This document shows, piece after piece, positions 39,307 to 63,658 of a stretch of 64,000 bases of DNA. A model generated the notes under the pieces. That model was not told where the DNA came from, searched no databases, and worked only from the letters and a program-made list of their open reading frames with translations. The stretch spans positions 1 through 64,000 of the forward strand of contig CAJQON010000030.1 in assembly GCA_905479995.1 (NCBI GenBank), given 5' to 3'. How positions within the stretch are numbered: position 1 is the stretch's first letter; each line of letters opens with the position of its first letter. The DNA is from an uncultured Flavobacteriales bacterium (GTDB lineage Bacteria > Bacteroidota > Bacteroidia > Flavobacteriales_E > Vicingaceae). The position numbers and the translations under genes are program-made.

Positions 39307-39876
39307 ATGAAGTCGCTCATTAATGAAATAGAGAAATGTAAAATTTGTGAGCCACAATTACTATTAGGTGCTCGACCAGTTTTAGCTGCACATCCCAAAA
39401 GCAAAATTGCAATAATTGGACAGGCTCCCGGTACGAAAGTTCACAACAGCGGAATTCCTTGGGATGATGAAAGTGGCGAAAACCTTAGACGTTGGATGAG
39501 TATTGACAATGAAACTTTTTACGATCCAGAACAAATAGCTATAATTCCTATGGGGTTTTGCTATCCTGGAAAAGGCAAAAGTGGTGATTTACCTCCACGC
39601 AAAGAATGTGCTCCTCTATGGCATGAGTTGCTTTTTGAACAGCTTAAAGAATTAGAGTTAGTTTTATTAATTGGAAAGTATGCTCAAGATTACTACTTAA
39701 AAGAACAAGCTCAAAAAACCTTAACAGAAACAGTTAAAAACTTCAAAACCTATCTTCCCAATCACTTTGTATTACCACATCCATCACCAAGAAACAACAT
39801 TTGGCAAGCCAAAAATGAATGGTTCGGAAAAGAGGTGTTACCAGAACTGCAGGCAAAGGTAAAGGCTATTTTATAA
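39307..39876 (+). CDS. Uracil-DNA glycosylase family protein
   Basis: 189 residues with the UDG fold. Motif A is IIGQAPGTKVHNSGIPWDD and motif B is LPHPSPRNNIW near residue 155; ECAPLW occurs near 100. It lacks the four-Cys Fe-S cluster of family 4 (only CKICEPQ at the N terminus). The catalytic polar residue position is not clear, so activity on uracil cannot be claimed. Its TAA shares the palindrome TTATAA with the convergent anti-sigma stop. It starts 1 bp after the upstream glycosyltransferase. Confidence 0.85.
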   Translation: MKSLINEIEKCKICEPQLLLGARPVLAAHPKSKIAIIGQAPGTKVHNSGIPWDDESGENLRRWMSIDNETFYDPEQIAIIPMGFCYPGKGKSGDLPPRKECAPLWHELLFEQLKELELVLLIGKYAQDYYLKEQAQKTLTETVKNFKTYLPNHFVLPHPSPRNNIWQAKNEWFGKEVLPELQAKVKAIL

Positions 39877-41295
39877 GACCTTCAATTTTTCTTCAGCTTT
39901 AGTTTTATAAAAACCATTTGTTACTACAATTTGTTGCAATACAACTTTTGCTTTTGCAATTTCTTTCAATTCAATTAAAGTTAAAGCTTTAAACCAATTT
40001 GCCTCCTCATTAAATTCAGCCTCTTCATTCACCAATACTTTATCCAACTCAACAAGAGCGTTGCTATATTGATACAAATAATAATGACTCATCCCTCCAT
40101 AAAACTGCCCATTAACTTCAGTTGGATGCTCTTTTAAAATTATACTAAACTGCTCTAAAGCCATGGTATAATTTTTTGCTTTATAAAATCCAATTGCCTT
40201 TTCTAAAGTTGCTTTATAAGTAATCTCAACAAGTAACTCAGACCTCTCCTTGTCTGCCATATTTTTTTCTTCTTCTGAAGCAAAATCAGCAGAAATTGAT
40301 TTCGTTTCCACAACCTGATTTAAATCATACTCCTTTTGATACTCTTCAGTATAATCAATCACTTTATGATCATTTAACACCACTATTTTATCGTTCCTCT
40401 CTTTTAGCGCAGACACAGATTCTCTCTCCAGGGAAGGAGATTGCATAAACCCTTTAGCCTTCTCCTTTTTTTGTCGATTATCATTAAATCTTCTATCCTC
40501 TTCCTTTCTTTCTGCCTTTTTGATCTTATAGCTATCTTTGTTTTTCAGCAATCCATCTACATCCCGATCATTCTTTGCATGATTAGTTGCAGCAGCATTT
40601 CCAGCTATACTCAAACTAGGCGAATTAGCTACTACTTCTTCTTTTAACTTTTCTTCATTGGGTTCATCTGCAATAAGTACAGGAATTTCATCCTCTAAAA
40701 CTTCCTCTACCTCTGCATCCTCCATTTCTACTAAATCAAACGATTGTACATTCGGTTCTTGAGTAAGACCATTATTTTGCAACATTACACTGGCAACCTC
40801 ATCAATACTAATTTCAAAAGGTAGTGCGATCTCTTCTTTTTCCTCAATCTCTTCTTTAATATCAGTTTCACTTTCATCTATATTCATATTCGCCTTTGTC
40901 AAAACTTCTTCCATTGATTCTGTTGTGCTTTCTTCATTCAAAATAGCAACATCAACTTCATTGGTTATGACATCATCAAAAACATTAAACGTAAAATAAC
41001 TGCCAAAAACAACAACTAACAATGAAGCTGCTACCATTAAATTTCGCATAATGGGTCTTTTCGCTCCTAATTTATTTACGCGCTGATCTATTTGATTATC
41101 AATGGCAAAAAGCATAGAAGAATTTTGAGCATATCTCATCCCAGCCAACGCATCGGTACACAATTCGCAGTCGAGCATATGCTTTTCAACCTCATACAAT
41201 TCTTTGGTAGAAAGTTGTTTATTGATATACCTGAGCATAGATTCCTTCGAGATGCAAGTCGTGTTTGAAAATATGTGGTTATTTAATTCTTTCAT
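39871..41295 (-). CDS. Transmembrane anti-sigma factor with zinc-binding N terminus and TPR C terminus
   Basis: 474 residues. The cytoplasmic N-terminal ~75 residues carry the ZAS motif HMLDCELC (His39, Cys43, Cys46), which binds ECF sigma factors. One transmembrane helix lies near 84-106 (NLMVAASLLVVVFGSYFTF). The periplasmic part is long, acidic and disordered (many Glu, about 110-340), and residues about 360-470 form TPR-like helices (AIGFYKAKNYTMALEQFSII, YLYQYSNALVELDKVL). It is co-transcribed with the sigma gene 11 bp upstream. TPRs may sense a partner in the periplasm. Similar proteins often carry a zinc-finger and only a short tail, so the long tail is notable. Confidence 0.85.
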   Translation of the reverse strand: MKELNNHIFSNTTCISKESMLRYINKQLSTKELYEVEKHMLDCELCTDALAGMRYAQNSSMLFAIDNQIDQRVNKLGAKRPIMRNLMVAASLLVVVFGSYFTFNVFDDVITNEVDVAILNEESTTESMEEVLTKANMNIDESETDIKEEIEEKEEIALPFEISIDEVASVMLQNNGLTQEPNVQSFDLVEMEDAEVEEVLEDEIPVLIADEPNEEKLKEEVVANSPSLSIAGNAAATNHAKNDRDVDGLLKNKDSYKIKKAERKEEDRRFNDNRQKKEKAKGFMQSPSLERESVSALKERNDKIVVLNDHKVIDYTEEYQKEYDLNQVVETKSISADFASEEEKNMADKERSELLVEITYKATLEKAIGFYKAKNYTMALEQFSIILKEHPTEVNGQFYGGMSHYYLYQYSNALVELDKVLVNEEAEFNEEANWFKALTLIELKEIAKAKVVLQQIVVTNGFYKTKAEEKLKVL

Positions 41296-41306
41296 TTTAA
41301 TTTCTT

Positions 41307-41885
41307 TTAGGCCGACATTATGTTAGCCAAATTTCTTTTTCCATTTTGTATATAACTTTTTACTTTTTTAATTTCATAGCCGGTAATATCAGCTACCTCG
41401 CTGTAACATTTTTCTTCTAAAAAAAACAATTCAATGCATACTCGTTGCTCCTCTTTTAAATGTGTTAACGCCTCTTCCAACTTGGTCAACTTCACCTCAT
41501 TTTCTTCCTTCTCATGCACAGCAAATGGAGCTGCAAAAGTTTCTTCGTGCTCATAAGTTGCTTCGTACTCATTCACCCTCTTCTGCTTTGTTTGCTGCCT
41601 TCTTAAAAACATTAAACAATGGTTTCGCGCTACACTATGTAACCATGATTTAAAATTAGCGATATCGTGTTTTTTAAGGTCCTCTAGTAAATTTTCAAAA
41701 ATCTGTAAAACAGCATCCTTACTCTCTTCCTCATTTTTTAAATACTTTAAGCAAACTCCATAAACCAGGTGAGAGTATCTTTTATATAACTCTCCCACCA
41801 ATGTGTTATCGCCTTTCCTTTTGTACTCAGCGATTAACTCATTGTCGGTTAATGGTTGTATGTTTTTAGATTTAAAAATTCTCAT
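41307..41885 (-). CDS. ECF RNA polymerase sigma factor
   Basis: 192 residues. Region 2 (LIAEYKRKGDNTLVGELYKR, YGVCLKYLKNEEESKDAVLQ and SWLHSVARNHCLMFLRR) and region 4 (LEEALTHLKEEQRVCIELFF, YSEVADITGYEIKKVKSYIQ) are clear. A charged linker lies between. Likely kept inactive by the anti-sigma encoded directly downstream, and it starts 10 bp after the stop of the plug-domain gene, so all three form one operon. Target promoters unknown. Confidence 0.94.
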   Translation of the reverse strand: MRIFKSKNIQPLTDNELIAEYKRKGDNTLVGELYKRYSHLVYGVCLKYLKNEEESKDAVLQIFENLLEDLKKHDIANFKSWLHSVARNHCLMFLRRQQTKQKRVNEYEATYEHEETFAAPFAVHEKEENEVKLTKLEEALTHLKEEQRVCIELFFLEEKCYSEVADITGYEIKKVKSYIQNGKRNLANIMSA

Positions 41886-41895
41886 TAAAAATAGC

Positions 41896-42597
41896 CTAGT
41901 ATTCTTGTGCTAAATCGAAATAACTTTTGGTTTCTACAATAATTACCCCTCCAGTTATGTCTCCATAACGAGCTGGAACTCCACCAGTATAAACCTTCAA
42001 ACTCCCAATTGCCTGACCAGGAATCCCAATATTACCAGTCATTGATTTCATCCCATCAGTAATAAATTGAGTAGATTGTGGCCTACTCCCTCTTATGTAA
42101 ACATCCTTTCCATTTGGTGCTAAAACAACACCAGGAAGTGAAGTGGCAATAGCAATAGGATTATTTCTATTTACATTCCTCTTCAGTTCCTTTGTAGTTA
42201 AAATTTGAACATGCGGCTCATCTTTTGAGATTAAAGGAGTTCTATACGTAATCATTTGGTATGTTTCCAATTGCTCAGCTGTTGCTTCCATTTCAAAATT
42301 TACATAGGTGATTTTATCCGAAAGCACGTCAACATTTTGAACCTTTACAGGCGCATAACCTGCATATTTTGCCATTACTGCATATTTTCCAGAATTCAAC
42401 GCATTTATAGTGAACTTACCATCAAAATCCGCAGCATCACCCATTAAATTTTCTCCTACTTCAATGTATACCGAAACATTCCAAATGGGCTCTCCAGTAG
42501 CTTTATCTTTTACAATTCCTTTTATTTCACCTGTTTGAGCAGCAACATTTGTTAATACAAATAAAATTGCAGCTAGTGTTGTAGTTAGTTTTTTCAT
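41896..42597 (-). CDS. Carboxypeptidase-regulatory plus TonB-plug protein lacking a beta-barrel
   Basis: 233 residues. Signal peptide 1-20 (TTTLAAILFVLTNVAAQ), a CarboxypepD_reg-like domain (about 24-110, GIVKDKATGEPIWNVSVYIE), then a TonB receptor plug-like domain (about 135-230, VYIRGSRPQSTQFITDGMKS and VYTGGVPARYGDITGGVIIV). SusC-type receptors have the same order followed by a ~700-residue barrel; here a normal stop follows and no barrel remnants are seen. It is first gene of the sigma operon. It may be a periplasmic signalling or adaptor protein, but the function is unproven. Confidence 0.85.
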   Translation of the reverse strand: MKKLTTTLAAILFVLTNVAAQTGEIKGIVKDKATGEPIWNVSVYIEVGENLMGDAADFDGKFTINALNSGKYAVMAKYAGYAPVKVQNVDVLSDKITYVNFEMEATAEQLETYQMITYRTPLISKDEPHVQILTTKELKRNVNRNNPIAIATSLPGVVLAPNGKDVYIRGSRPQSTQFITDGMKSMTGNIGIPGQAIGSLKVYTGGVPARYGDITGGVIIVETKSYFDLAQEY

Positions 42598-42757
42598 TTT
42601 TTCTAAAGTTTTAAATTAAACAAATAATTAGCAATCGACATGTCATTAATTAAGAATATTCGCTTATTAGATGCAAGTGCACCTCAAATTCCATAAAAAT
42701 TTATGCTCTTTTTTTATTTATCCAAATAAATAACCGTTTATCATATTCTATTACGGA

Positions 42758-57366: not shown

Positions 57367-58107
57367 CTAAGCTAATTCGCTATATTTTTCGATAGCTACT
57401 TTGGTGTCTCCAAAATACAAAAGCTCTCCTTTATGCATTAATATAGTTCTAGAGCAATACTTTTCTATCAAACCTGCACTATGGGAAACTAAAATAGCTG
57501 TTCGGCCTTGTATCCAATTCTCTTCCAACACTTTAGTCGCTTTATTTCTAAACTTATCATCCCCTACAGCAAATACTTCATCCAAAAATATAATGTCTGC
57601 TTTGGCATATATTGCTATTGAAAATGATAATCGTTGAATCATTCCAGAAGAATAGTATTTAATCTTAGTATCAACAAAGTCTTGCAGCTCAGCAAACTCA
57701 ATAATATCGTTAAATATTTCGTCTATTTGCTTTACTCGAAGACCTAAAGTAGAACCGTTCACATAAATATTTTCTCTTGCCGTTAACTCATGACTAAAGC
57801 CTACTCCTAAATTCAATAATAAGGAAGTTCCATTTTTAATCACCTCACCACCTTTATCAGGAGTATATGCACCAGACATTATTTTTGTTAAAGTAGATTT
57901 TCCACTACCATTACGTCCAATTACACCAATACATTCTCCTTTATAAATGTCTAGATTAACATTTTTAACTGCTTTGAGTTGCTGTTTTTTATTTTTTTTA
58001 TGAAGGTTAAATAACCTTTGTTGAATGGTATGAAATGACTTATCGGCAAACCGAAAAGTTTTATTTACATTTTTTAATGATAATGATATTTCATTTGTAG
58101 TATCCAT
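57367..58107 (-). CDS. ABC exporter ATPase, short form (second glycan locus)
   Basis: About 246 residues from ATG 58107 (a TTG at 58140 would extend it into the permease gene). Walker A GRNGSGKST, signature YSSGMIQRLSFSIA, Walker B IIFLDEVFAVGD and switch VSHSAG. It belongs to the Wzt/KpsT/TagH family but ends right after the ATPase core: no C-terminal cargo-binding domain, unlike the protein at 33408. The permease gene ends 4 bp upstream. Exports the glycan of the 57-64 kb locus. Confidence 0.92.
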   Translation of the reverse strand: MDTTNEISLSLKNVNKTFRFADKSFHTIQQRLFNLHKKNKKQQLKAVKNVNLDIYKGECIGVIGRNGSGKSTLTKIMSGAYTPDKGGEVIKNGTSLLLNLGVGFSHELTARENIYVNGSTLGLRVKQIDEIFNDIIEFAELQDFVDTKIKYYSSGMIQRLSFSIAIYAKADIIFLDEVFAVGDDKFRNKATKVLEENWIQGRTAILVSHSAGLIEKYCSRTILMHKGELLYFGDTKVAIEKYSELA

Positions 58108-58111
58108 AAAT

Positions 58112-58900
58112 CTAGAGTATTTCGGAAGCTCTACCTCCAATTTTTTTAACCATTACCAATCCTATTACTACAACAATAACTCCTTGAACAAAGTTTATTC
58201 CCAATAAATAAAAATTTGGAGCTTCATTATACATCATAATATTTCTGAAATTAATAATAATACCAGCCATTGGATTTGCATAATTTAAAATAGGAAGTTT
58301 TGCTGAAATTTTTTCATAATGATATAGCAATGGAGATATCCAAAACAAAAACATAACTACTAAACCCCATATTTGCTTAACATCTTTAGCTATGAGAAAA
58401 ACATTAGAAAGGATCATAGATACTCCAATGGAAAACAGAACCAAGTTAATAAATACCAATGGGAACCATAAAGCATTAAGCCCCAACGATAACCCATCAA
58501 GGTATAAGTAGACAATGAAAACAAACATATTAAACATAAAGCCTATAATAATGCTCAATTGGGTCGATATATATATATCTAACTTAGACATATTAGAGTA
58601 TTCGTAGAGGTATTTTTTAGTTTTTAAAACCACAATCATACCAGAAGTAGTTTCTGTGAAAACTCCCCATACTATTAATCCAATAAATAGGTAAACAGCA
58701 TAATTAGGTACGCTTACTTGAAGAATTATTGCAAAAGCTACATAATAAATGGCCATTTGCAATAAGGGCTTAATTAATGCCCAAAGCAACCCAAGTTTGT
58801 TTTCATAATAACGTAGCTTAAACTCAATTTTAGCCAATAGCCATATACGCTCTAGCCTATTACTCTTGGTTAAATCTTTATTTAAAATAGTTTGGCTCAT
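58112..58900 (-). CDS. ABC-2 polysaccharide exporter permease (second glycan locus)
   Basis: 262 residues with the amphipathic N-terminal helix (LAKIEFKLRYYENKLGLLWA) and about six membrane helices (IYYVAFAIILQV, YLFIGLIVWGVF, FNMFVFIVYLYLD, VVVIGLVMV). Same family as the permease at 32573, but diverged. It pairs with the ATPase encoded 4 bp downstream and lies 13 bp after the GT4-GT2 gene. Probably moves a lipid-linked glycan to the periplasm. Confidence 0.92.
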   Translation of the reverse strand: MSQTILNKDLTKSNRLERIWLLAKIEFKLRYYENKLGLLWALIKPLLQMAIYYVAFAIILQVSVPNYAVYLFIGLIVWGVFTETTSGMIVVLKTKKYLYEYSNMSKLDIYISTQLSIIIGFMFNMFVFIVYLYLDGLSLGLNALWFPLVFINLVLFSIGVSMILSNVFLIAKDVKQIWGLVVMFLFWISPLLYHYEKISAKLPILNYANPMAGIIINFRNIMMYNEAPNFYLLGINFVQGVIVVVIGLVMVKKIGGRASEIL

Positions 58901-58913
58901 TTATTTTTTAAGT

Positions 58914-61076
58914 TTATTTATTCAAAACTCTATACATTCTTTTAGCAATCAAACGTAATGTATTATTTCTTTTTAAAACAGAGATAACTTTTCCTTTTAA
59001 TAACCAATGATTGTTTGAAAACCCTGTCATTCCCCATGTTGGATTGTCGTAATTTATTCCAGGTCCATTTTGATTTAATAGATTGGAAATTTTATTTCCA
59101 TAGGCCTGAAATAAAGGCTGATGCCTTTCACTTATTACACTATATAAATACAACTCTTTGTTTTTATTAAATGCTTGTGCCATTGAGTTTGAACGTATTC
59201 TATATTGCCACCAAAGTTCTGGAAATGCTACTCCTCTTGCTCCATTTTTAACCATAGAAATTACACTGTCGTAATCTTCCATACCATAAATTAAAGCTGG
59301 ATCATTTTTCCCAAATGCTAAAAAATCGACCTTTTTATAAATCAGTGCACTACTATTTATCATATTATGAACCAGCAAATACGGTGGCTCTGGATTAAAT
59401 GTTGGCCAAGTAGATTTACTCTCTCCAAAATACTGTGCCCAACATCCTACAAAACTTACATTTTCATACTGTTTTAACACTTCTATAGCTCTACTATAAT
59501 AATCTGGACTTACCGTATCGTCTGCATCTAAAAAAGCTAAAAACTCACCTTTAGCCTTGTCTGCACCATAATTTCGAGTTAAGGATAAGCCTTCGTTTTC
59601 TTTATGGTAAACTGTAATGTTATATTTCTGTTCTATTTCTTGAAGTTTCTGAATACTATCTTCTTCAGAAGATCCGTCATTAACCACAATTATTTCAATA
59701 GAATTATAACTTATTTTTTCTAACGAATTAAGTGTGTCTTCAATGTAATTACCCATATTGAAATACGGGATTACAATACTTAACAATCCTCGTTCAGGAT
59801 TATCATTTGTTACTGAATGTTCTTTTCTTTCTATCGTTTCTATAAAATCAAACGTATTGGACAAGGCATCATTTTGAATTAGTTTATCTAATTCTACTAA
59901 CTTTTGAGAATATACAATGTCGTAATTTGTTGTTTTTTCAACTGCTAGCTGAGCTTGTTTCCCTATTAAATCTAATTCCTTTTTCGACTTGGATAGTATA
60001 GCTTTTAATGTATTTTCAAAACTTTTTTTATCGCTATGTTTAAAAATGAAACCACTCTTGTTGTGTTCAACTATTTCTATGTGTCCTCCATTTGATGATG
60101 TGATAACAGCTTTACCCATAGCCATAGACTCTATAACTGCATAAGGTAAGTTATCTACAATACTTGGCATTATAATAACATGCGCCTTTTTAAGCCGTTC
60201 TTTTAACAATTCTGGCCTCATGTTTCCCTCAAAAAGAATCAATCCTCTATTGATGTAAGCTTTATATTTTTGCTTCACATAATCAATCATATCAGCTTGC
60301 ACTGGATAAAAGAAATGTTGTCCTCCTCCTATTATTGAGATGGGTTTATCAAACCCATTGTCCCACATATTTTTAAGGTATGAGAGCATCTCCAAACCTC
60401 CTTTTTGAGGAGTTAATTTCCCAAAAAATACCATATCAAATTCCTCAAACTCTGGAATATCACCAGAGGTCCATTCATTTAAATATGGGTTAAAAATTCG
60501 AATTGGATTTTTATCCTCCAAATTCATTCTTGGAATTAACTCGTCTATTAAATATTGAGATGGTGAAACGACAAGATCGGACATCCTTATAGATGCTTTT
60601 TCCATTTCTCCAGCCCAGTAATCAGGAAATTTATAATGAGGAACCTGATTGTATTCAAAATACAAGAAACTAGGTGCGTGCATAGTCATAACAACTTTAA
60701 GGTTTTTAAAGTTGTTATAGAGCAATTTCTTTTTTTGTAGGGTATAAAATCCTATTCCCTTATAATCTTGGGTTTCAAGAATATCAGGAACACCTTTAAG
60801 TTCCATTTCAAGTTCTACAGTGTGAGCAAATTCTAAGCTTAATCTAGCATCGTCTCCTAATATTTCTCCTTGAGAAACTTGATTAGGGGGAAATCGGATT
60901 ACCTCAACATTTTTAATTGGTGTATCTCTCTGAATGGCTGAAATACTATAGTCGTTAACAAATACAGTTACGGAATGGCCTTTATTGACTAACATTTTTG
61001 ATGTATGCCAGCAATAAGTGCTTATACCTCCTCCATGTATGGGAGGAAACTCTGTTGTTAATAGCCAATAATTCAT
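58914..61076 (-). CDS. Bifunctional glycosyltransferase: GT4 domain fused to GT2 domain
   Basis: 720 residues. Residues 1-410 are a GT-B fold GT4: WLLTTEFPPIHGGGISTYCW, FDMVFFGKLTPQKGGLEML, and IMPSIVDNLPYAVIESMAMG (the EX7E-type donor site). Residues about 440-650 are a GT-A fold GT2: LSIVIPYFNMGNYIEDTL, EIIVVNDGSS, and FLAFLDADDTVSPDYY with the DxD-type metal motif. A two-enzyme polypeptide suggests two sequential sugar transfers. It is in operon with the ABC exporter. Sugars unknown. Confidence 0.9.
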   Translation of the reverse strand: MNYWLLTTEFPPIHGGGISTYCWHTSKMLVNKGHSVTVFVNDYSISAIQRDTPIKNVEVIRFPPNQVSQGEILGDDARLSLEFAHTVELEMELKGVPDILETQDYKGIGFYTLQKKKLLYNNFKNLKVVMTMHAPSFLYFEYNQVPHYKFPDYWAGEMEKASIRMSDLVVSPSQYLIDELIPRMNLEDKNPIRIFNPYLNEWTSGDIPEFEEFDMVFFGKLTPQKGGLEMLSYLKNMWDNGFDKPISIIGGGQHFFYPVQADMIDYVKQKYKAYINRGLILFEGNMRPELLKERLKKAHVIIMPSIVDNLPYAVIESMAMGKAVITSSNGGHIEIVEHNKSGFIFKHSDKKSFENTLKAILSKSKKELDLIGKQAQLAVEKTTNYDIVYSQKLVELDKLIQNDALSNTFDFIETIERKEHSVTNDNPERGLLSIVIPYFNMGNYIEDTLNSLEKISYNSIEIIVVNDGSSEEDSIQKLQEIEQKYNITVYHKENEGLSLTRNYGADKAKGEFLAFLDADDTVSPDYYSRAIEVLKQYENVSFVGCWAQYFGESKSTWPTFNPEPPYLLVHNMINSSALIYKKVDFLAFGKNDPALIYGMEDYDSVISMVKNGARGVAFPELWWQYRIRSNSMAQAFNKNKELYLYSVISERHQPLFQAYGNKISNLLNQNGPGINYDNPTWGMTGFSNNHWLLKGKVISVLKRNNTLRLIAKRMYRVLNK

Positions 61077-61129
61077 TCTCTAATTATACTTTATAATAAA
61101 ACACTTCCCTTTAAGAGATACAATAACTC

Positions 61130-63658
61130 TTATTTTTTCTTCTGATTTTTCTTAATCTTAGTTTTCACAACAGCTATTACAGATCTCTTTTCATAGGTGT
61201 TTTTGTACCATGCATTACTTTCTGTTAATTTTTTCTCTAAATGCTGACTAGTCTTCAATTGTGCTTTTAAAATTGTTAATTCTTCAGTAAGATTGTCAAC
61301 TACTTTATTTTTAGCTGTCATTGTATTTTTTAAGTCAACAAGATCAGCATTTAAGCTACTCACTTCCTTTTGATAGTCTAGAACCTGACTCTTTAAATCA
61401 TAAACTTCTGTTGAAAGTTTATTTTTAATTGTCTGAAATTTTTCTTTCGCTCTAACTAACCCTCTATTCTCGTAACTAACTAATTGAAGCTTTTTTTGTA
61501 ACTTGTTTAAATTTACACTGGCAAAATATTCCTCGATACCATCACTTATCCCCTCTAATTTCTCATCATCTAGTTGATGCTTCTCTATTGCAACATGTAG
61601 CGCATCCATTATTGATTCATATTCTTTAACAGACAGTTTTAAATTTTCAATACTGTGTATTCCTTCTTCTATCCTTAAAAGAATATATAACAATTGAGAT
61701 GGGTCTAAATCCCAAACTGTAATATGATAACTCCATCTCAATGCAAATGATTGAGCTCGTACAAGGTCACTAGGAATTAATGGACTAATATGATTTAAAA
61801 CGATTACTAGGTCATCAATATGTTTAGTAGAAATTTTTTGATTGGTAATTGAACTTTGATTAACTCTATAGTTTACTAAAGTTTTATCTACACCTATTCT
61901 AAAATTTGCATTATGATAACATTTAGGCATAATTTCTAAATCTTCGTAAAAAAGATGTCCAATAAACCTTATTTCTTCAAATACACATGCTCTAAATAAT
62001 TTATTCCAAACATTTGACTTAGTAATCCCCTTGCACAGCTTAATAATAGATTCATCACAACCTAAAACTTTTTCATCTGGATGATAAACTGATCCTTTAC
62101 GATTATTCGTAAAGGATTGATACCCAAACTCGATAATGTCTGCCTTTAAATTACTCTTGGTAAAATTTAACAAATCTTCTAAGGCATTTTCTTCATAAAA
62201 ATCATCAGAATCCAAAAAAGCAATGTATTCTCCTTGTGCAATATCTAACCCACTATTTCTTGCTCCTCCAAGTCCTTTATTTTCCTCATGTTCTACCAAA
62301 TAATATGGTGTTTGAACATCCTTCATAAAAGCCTTCACTTTTAGCCAAGAATCATCGGGAGTACAATCATTTACAATAATAATTTCAAATTGATTCAACA
62401 CCTCTTCACTCGTACTAAAAACAGAATTTAAACATTGCTCTATATATTCCGAAACATTATAAACCGGAATGATGATTGAAATTATTGGTTTAACACTCAT
62501 TTGTTGTTGTTTGTTTAGCTTCTCTTTAAAATTTATTTCCTTAAATGCTTCTTTCAAAACTGATGAATTTTCAATATCCGTATTCTCAAAAGCAACTTGT
62601 ATTTCTTTTAGATAATCTATCTTATCTGAAAGAATATTATTCTTTATTGACTTTACGCAGGTTAAAACCAACTCATCAATTATCTGCAGGTCTTTTTCAG
62701 TGATATTGTTTTTTCTAAAAACCTTTTTATTTTCTGGAAATAATTTTTCTCTTCCTTTAAAGTATCTTTTACATACTGCACTATTCGATTCAAGAAACTC
62801 TTCTTCTAAAGCATAATATTCTTGCTCTTCATAAGCTGCTCCCTTTCCTTTAAATTTAATAGAAAACAAATCCATCAGTTCCCTATTAATTGTACTCCAT
62901 TTTTTTCCATTTGTAAAATGCGGTTCAATGTGATTAACTGACCATCCAAAAGCTTGACCAATTAATGATAATGACTCATTATCACTCAAGTCTATATTAG
63001 AAACATCAACAGCATCCATATCAATAGCATTCATAAAATCCTTGATCAAACTTCCTTCTACAAATTCATTCTTATCAAAAATTTTAACTATAATATTATT
63101 TATTCCAAAGACATTCTCCCAATTCGTTAGAAAAACATCAAAATTAAAATACACATTATCTTTATTACAATCCTCCTTATACTGACTAAAACGTTTGAGT
63201 TTACCTACTTTAATATGCGTGGAATATAAAGATTCCGACATTTTACTTTGCTCTCTTAAATACGTTAAAATAGTTACCTCTTCAAAGAACCCAGACAGCA
63301 AGCTTTTTAAATTCTGAATTTCTTCTGTAGTTGTTAACCTCGAATGAAAGTGCTCACAAGATGAAATTACGGTGTGAATATTAGCAGGAAGATTAGCAAG
63401 TTCAATTGAAAGATCAACATAACACTTATCTTTAAATACCTGTTTCTTTTCTAAGTTATCAATATCCCTAGTAATAAAAAAATCATCATATCGATCATCT
63501 TTATAACAGTATGAGGCCAAATCTCTATTACACTCTTCTCCAGGAGATTGCAAAAAATAAAAACCTTTTGCATTTAACTTATTCTGGTTTGAGTGTAAAA
63601 ACTTTTGAATAGAAGTTGACCCTGTTTTTTCAGTACCTATATGAACAATAATTTTCAT
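61130..63658 (-). CDS. Sulfotransferase-like domain fused to GT2 glycosyltransferase and coiled coil
   Basis: 842 residues in three parts. Residues 1-260 resemble a PAPS-dependent sulfotransferase: IIVHIGTEKTGSTSIQKFL is the 5'-phosphosulfate loop, and SSCEHFHSRLT plus REQSKMSESLYSTHIK lie where a 3'-phosphate site would be. Residues about 390-650 are a GT2 domain: ISIIIPVYNVSEYIEQCL, IIVNDCTPDDSW, and IAFLDSDDFYEENALED (DxD-type). Residues about 715-820 are a long coiled coil (VSSLNADLVDLKNTM and NLTEELTILKAQL), and a Lys-rich tail ends the protein. One protein could transfer sugar and sulfate to the same glycan. The fusion seems uncommon. Confidence 0.87.
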   Translation of the reverse strand: MKIIVHIGTEKTGSTSIQKFLHSNQNKLNAKGFYFLQSPGEECNRDLASYCYKDDRYDDFFITRDIDNLEKKQVFKDKCYVDLSIELANLPANIHTVISSCEHFHSRLTTTEEIQNLKSLLSGFFEEVTILTYLREQSKMSESLYSTHIKVGKLKRFSQYKEDCNKDNVYFNFDVFLTNWENVFGINNIIVKIFDKNEFVEGSLIKDFMNAIDMDAVDVSNIDLSDNESLSLIGQAFGWSVNHIEPHFTNGKKWSTINRELMDLFSIKFKGKGAAYEEQEYYALEEEFLESNSAVCKRYFKGREKLFPENKKVFRKNNITEKDLQIIDELVLTCVKSIKNNILSDKIDYLKEIQVAFENTDIENSSVLKEAFKEINFKEKLNKQQQMSVKPIISIIIPVYNVSEYIEQCLNSVFSTSEEVLNQFEIIIVNDCTPDDSWLKVKAFMKDVQTPYYLVEHEENKGLGGARNSGLDIAQGEYIAFLDSDDFYEENALEDLLNFTKSNLKADIIEFGYQSFTNNRKGSVYHPDEKVLGCDESIIKLCKGITKSNVWNKLFRACVFEEIRFIGHLFYEDLEIMPKCYHNANFRIGVDKTLVNYRVNQSSITNQKISTKHIDDLVIVLNHISPLIPSDLVRAQSFALRWSYHITVWDLDPSQLLYILLRIEEGIHSIENLKLSVKEYESIMDALHVAIEKHQLDDEKLEGISDGIEEYFASVNLNKLQKKLQLVSYENRGLVRAKEKFQTIKNKLSTEVYDLKSQVLDYQKEVSSLNADLVDLKNTMTAKNKVVDNLTEELTILKAQLKTSQHLEKKLTESNAWYKNTYEKRSVIAVVKTKIKKNQKKK

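Follow-up and report, generated by a model that had tools for sequence, protein, structure and literature searches.

The operon at positions 39871-42597 of the window, i.e., the whole 64-kb stretch of DNA analysed here, encodes a barrel-less TonB plug protein, an ECF sigma factor and a ZAS-type membrane anti-sigma factor, and it is a variant of ECF/anti-sigma envelope signalling that belongs to neither Dma/Das nor FecA/FecR. Two findings alter how the operon is read, namely that orthologues of the anti-sigma factor end in a TonB C-terminal domain (TonB_C) and that the predicted promoter regulon contains TonB. Based on comparative sequence analysis, the operon may form an autoregulated circuit for TonB and envelope homeostasis, with the free plug as the anti-sigma factor's in-operon receptor mimic, a reading that we place marginally above an even chance.

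Gene order and domains of the operon

ORF calling in the window places the three genes on the minus strand, separated by gaps of 10 bases (plug to sigma) and 11 bases (sigma to anti-sigma), and both coordinates and domains agree with those of an earlier note on this DNA. The features are listed below with the evidence for each.

41896..42597, minus strand: barrel-less TonB plug protein, 233 aa (ORF; Pfam)
42265..42525, minus strand: CarboxypepD_reg (REG) domain after the signal peptide, residues 25-111 (PF13620, 4.8e-14; PF13715, 5.5e-13)
41944..42213, minus strand: TonB receptor plug domain, residues 129-218 (PF07715, 1.1e-7)
41899..41943, minus strand: family-conserved C-terminal tail SYFDLAQxYK at the expected barrel start (alignment)
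41307..41885, minus strand: ECF sigma factor, 192 aa (ORF; Pfam; TIGR02937)
39871..41295, minus strand: ZAS-type membrane anti-sigma factor, 474 aa (ORF; H39-x3-C43-x2-C46; zf-HC2 matches of orthologues; AlphaFold2)
41071..41295, minus strand: cytoplasmic ZAS anti-sigma domain, residues 1-75 (HxxxCxxC in the sequence; HMM over orthologues)
40981..41046, minus strand: transmembrane helix, about residues 84-105 (hydropathy of orthologues; AlphaFold2 helix 82-113)
40396..40959, minus strand: disordered acidic periplasmic arm, residues 113-300 (pLDDT mostly <50)
40321..40389, minus strand: pre-TPR hairpin motif HKVIDYTEEYQ (YKVVDYxxEYQ), residues 303-325 (AlphaFold2 strands 304-307 and 310-313)
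39874..40227, minus strand: TPR domain, residues 357-474 (AlphaFold2; Foldseek)
42668..42697, minus strand: sigma-E-like operon promoter TTTATGGAAT-N14-CATCTA, with the -35-like element at 42688-42697 and the -10-like element at 42668-42673 (conservation, enrichment)

The plug protein had been described as a receptor cut down to its regulatory and plug domains. Both domains are present, but the regulatory one is CarboxypepD_reg and not STN, while Pfam finds no barrel in the 233 residues and the chain stops right after the plug. The short form is present in at least 10 genera with the same end point, where the barrel would begin, its core is conserved in the alignment, and a dN/dS of 0.11-0.13 (about 0.12) indicates purifying selection. 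The closest long homologue in nearly every relative is a receptor of ~1250 aa, and in a tree the short operon plugs group apart from these receptors, in a clade of their own; the TonB-box-like linker is degenerate in the short plugs. One Bacteroidales relative (L187) encodes, just upstream of the sigma gene, a protein of 807 aa in which regulatory and plug domains are found. The first description, of a barrel-less protein expressed from the sigma operon, is upheld, and a simple truncation or pseudogene is ruled out by the dN/dS values together with the conserved end. Solitary barrel-less plugs also occur away from any sigma gene (L118:9553-10398 and L108:1872-2738, in genomes G048 and G049). 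In the operon's own genome (C46), the ~1250-aa TonB receptor that is the plug's closest paralogue in nearly every relative searched is encoded in one run with two others, a secreted protein of 1376 aa and a protein resembling PorV/PorP (L124:1056-10065); together they have the look of a conserved receptor complex with a link to type IX secretion.

The sigma factor matches Sigma70_r2 (2.7e-12) and r4_2 (1.3e-8) in Pfam as well as the ECF model TIGR02937 (1.8e-24). The anti-sigma factor combines the H39, C43 and C46 motif with a transmembrane helix and a sigma gene 11 bases away, and its orthologues match zf-HC2, whereas neither a FecR nor a TonB_C domain is found by Pfam in the protein of the window. 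Its arm holds 50 D/E against 24 K/R in 188 residues. The TPR domain is weak in Pfam (7e-4), but AlphaFold2 models it with pLDDT block means of 90-97, and in Foldseek it matches the YbgF TPR (2xev, TMt 0.83). The long acidic periplasmic arm ending in TPRs, as originally proposed, is upheld by composition, AlphaFold2 and Foldseek.

The order plug, sigma, anti-sigma recurs in all 13 other genomes of the genus and, beyond it, in no fewer than nine genera or lineages, including the same-family genera g4, g7, g12, g14 and g16 and further Flavobacteriales lineages. Because it recurs so widely, the arrangement is not due to chance. In two lineages the plug gene is divergent from the sigma gene and not co-transcribed with it, and in g5 the plug gene is missing from a locus that keeps the same neighbourhood, sigma, anti-sigma and promoter. 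In a quick sigma tree, g5 shares a supported clade with species that have the plug, and this points to loss of the gene in g5. The earlier note knew of no described system with this exact layout, and no published description of it was found in the literature searched. Flanking the operon region, large polysaccharide or O-antigen-type clusters (14417-35421 and 57367-63658) contain glycosyltransferases, sugar epimerases and two ABC export pairs.

Promoter and predicted regulon

The motif TTTATGGAAW-N13/14-CATCTM precedes the plug gene in the operons examined and, in plug-less g5, the sigma gene. It is conserved across genera, with a few members deviating by 1-2 bases, and we take its TGGAA...TCTA form to resemble the sigma-E type. 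The published flavobacterial motif SM6, which contains a CGT box, looks unlike it (PMC9723704). The core pattern occurs once in the 64-kb window against 0.03 matches expected. Scanning with the exact pattern TATGGAAWN{13,14}CATCTM, against reversed controls, gave four matches against none in the own genome, 67 against 5 in the 14 genomes of the genus, and 29 against 1 in 11 genomes of the family that carry this sigma. Twelve family genomes without this sigma gave 5 against 9, at least four of the five lying inside genes. Within the family, promoter enrichment is confined to genomes carrying this sigma. A genome scan allowing two mismatches was too noisy to be relied on by itself (35 against 16 in controls), and motif matches inside sigma or other coding genes in distant loci were excluded from the promoter count.

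The genes downstream of predicted sites usually lie within ~100 bases of them. Recurrent downstream genes encode a TonB with a TonB_C domain, an exbBD-linked TonB/TolA-type transducer, a VWA-YfbK protein and a macroglobulin that both carry REG, additional proteins with REG, DUF4139 and, behind a longer leader, a large surface protein; an S41/PDZ protease is also among the predicted members. The TonB family ranks among the commonest predicted target families, and at class level sites lie upstream of TonB, ExbD/TolR, VWA-REG and DUF4139 genes. For example, an exbB-exbD-TonB/TolA-like-folC operon in the own genome (C57, L350:355-2241) has an internal predicted sigma promoter before the transducer gene, with TGGAATTT-N-CATCTA 9 bp before its start, while the 226-aa TonB of the same genome has only a degraded motif with three mismatches. 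In addition, L341 and L308 encode inner-membrane proteins that are Cys-rich at the N-terminus and have a CarboxypepD_reg domain in the periplasm; both carry the promoter motif, and the own-genome member of the pair ends in a receptor-like linker. The predicted regulon is well supported by these comparisons, and this sigma very probably controls TonB-type genes from the TTTATGGAAW-N13/14-CATCTM promoter.

Outer end of the anti-sigma factor and a proposed role of the free plug

Across Bacteroidota, the outer end of orthologous anti-sigmas consists of either TPRs or a TonB C-terminal domain; some of these proteins also have REG in the arm, combined with TonB_C (e.g., L113 and L166) or with TPR (L158). 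Chains that unite ZAS, a transmembrane segment, CarboxypepD_reg and TonB_C were observed at L113:9863-11251, L166, L173, L179, L196 and L207, mostly beside a divergent gene whose product also has a CarboxypepD_reg domain and is of the VWA-YfbK type where checked. In Cytophagales and Sphingobacteriales, the sigma gene often has a divergent neighbour that encodes a REG protein of ~600-690 aa; two such representatives are REG-VWA-YfbK proteins by Pfam, as is their homologue in the window's genus. Since the TonB C-terminal domain is the part of TonB that contacts receptors, it is plausible that the arm reads their periplasmic face.

The plug gene adjoins 22 of 43 TPR-type loci and none of 58 TonB_C-type loci; the Fisher value of 1e-10 for this association is only indicative, as the rows are related and uncorrected for phylogeny. 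The pre-TPR hairpin motif is almost confined to anti-sigmas with a plug in the operon, and the anti-sigmas of g5, where the plug gene is absent, have neither the hairpin motif nor a complete TPR. These patterns, with the plug found only beside TPR types and the joint absence in g5, fit the proposal of the earlier note that the plug may be a partner of the TPR arm, and this contact stands as a candidate. A co-fold of the in-frame plug-sigma-anti-sigma read-through chain of the relative L130 gave a pTM of 0.24, with pLDDT <50 over much of the plug and the arm, a model too poor to speak for or against contact. As judged from the comparative pattern, direct binding of the plug to the TPR arm could equally well hold or fail.

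The sequences themselves show the order of the genes, their domains and conservation, the promoter with its predicted regulon, and the alternation between TPR and TonB_C at the outer end; that the plug binds the arm directly, and which signal and sign the feedback has, is what we infer. In the favoured circuit, the ZAS domain would retain the sigma factor at the inner membrane, and the long disordered arm would span the periplasm so that its outer hairpin and TPR, or TonB_C in many relatives, could read the periplasmic face of receptors. Once freed, the sigma factor would use TGGAAW-N13/14-CATCTM promoters to drive the operon itself, TonB genes and envelope genes with REG, and would so help to set the supply of TonB/TolA-type force transducers and REG proteins. 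The secreted plug would mimic the receptor face without a barrel, most likely as a soluble ligand of the hairpin/TPR end of the arm, thereby closing a feedback loop. The signal may be free or unassembled receptor plugs, or a shortage of TonB. Counting against this reading, the circuit is present without the plug in g5 and at 21 of the 43 TPR-type loci, the plug gene is divergent in two lineages, the TonB-box-like linker of short plugs is degenerate, and the motif of the 226-aa TonB in the own genome is degraded; the plug is also evolutionarily dispensable for the circuit, since plug-less lineages keep the promoter and the TonB targets.

It could also be that the plug is solely an output of the circuit and acts elsewhere in the periplasm, for example in TonB binding or receptor assembly, without touching the anti-sigma factor. 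Several other predicted regulon members carry REG without being sensors, g5 retains circuit and TonB promoters without a plug, and the solitary short plugs of G048 and G049 lie away from any sigma, all of which agree with this explanation; however, the plug gene is tied solely to TPR-type anti-sigmas, and g5 lacks the plug together with the hairpin motif and some of the TPR, leaving it rather unlikely in our judgement. The resemblance of the promoter to the sigma-E type, together with the S41/PDZ protease and the macroglobulin in the predicted regulon, would suit a sigma-E-like stress response to the exposed plug/REG of unassembled TonB receptors, where TonB is one output among others and the free plug a competitor that damps or sustains the response. 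Yet no RseP/DegS-like partner is adjacent to the operon and the TonB family is among the commonest target families, and we consider such a response distinctly improbable.

Two further explanations concern the plug itself. Its conserved core would be expected if it were inserted in trans into the barrel of a receptor lacking its own plug, but the operon has no plug-less barrel partner beside it and the TonB-box-like linker is degenerate, which makes trans assembly highly improbable. Even less credible is that the plug gene is the decaying remnant of a full receptor that once occupied this position: although the 807-aa regulatory and plug protein just upstream of the sigma gene in a distant relative (L187) would fit, decay is contradicted by the low dN/dS, the common end point in at least 10 genera and the clade formed by the short operon plugs.

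Relation to described systems and meaning

The earlier note compared the operon with classic surface signalling, and this comparison did not hold, as Pfam finds CarboxypepD_reg instead of STN and no FecR domain on the anti-sigma factor. FecA/FecR signalling is excluded because its three defining domains, STN, FecR and the barrel, are all missing. What is shared with FecA-FecR-FecI is an ECF sigma factor, a membrane anti-sigma factor and a periplasmic domain derived from a TonB receptor, whereas the anti-sigma factor here is of the ZAS type and the circuit is predicted to act on TonB/ExbD and REG genes instead of a single transport operon. SusC/RagA and other TonB-dependent receptors of Bacteroidota likewise have an N-terminal CarboxypepD_reg domain and a plug, but the barrel is absent here, and with TIGR04056 the plug protein scores 40.9, far from the cut-off of 368.25 bits.

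By analogy, the operon would share with the RseA/sigma-E system a promoter of the GGAA/TCTA type, autoregulation, envelope targets and, possibly, the sensing of OMP parts, but it differs in anti-sigma architecture, in lacking RseB, DegS or RseP linked at the locus, and in having TonB transducers among its targets. The closest described system is Dma/Das (ECF21) of Bacteroides thetaiotaomicron, a set of dual membrane-spanning anti-sigma systems in which a Bacteroidota ECF sigma factor is paired with an anti-sigma factor of like architecture: a cytoplasmic domain and one transmembrane helix, followed by a long disordered tether. As here, dma2 sits in a three-gene operon (PMC13088901). The outer end of Dma is an outer-membrane beta-barrel; in the present operon it is a TPR domain (residues 357-474; TonB_C in relatives), and the barrel-less plug is a separate protein.

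Bacteroidota genomes encode many TonB-dependent receptors. In the literature searched, neither an account of how Bacteroidota match the amount of TonB to receptor demand nor a sigma factor answering envelope trouble in this phylum was found. The operon suggests that TonB supply is adjusted by sensing of periplasmic receptor parts. More tentatively, and with somewhat less than even confidence, a Bacteroidota-wide ECF circuit may sense the periplasmic face of receptors through TonB_C, or through TPR plus a dedicated free plug acting as signalling ligand, and so tune the supply of TonB/TolA. Should the free plug prove to be a ligand, part of a receptor would have been reused as a soluble signal, for which no description was found in the literature searched. 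Finally, the circuit proposed for the operon is open to testing: its promoter is defined, its predicted regulon includes the transducers, and in many relatives the anti-sigmas carry the receptor-binding domain of TonB.
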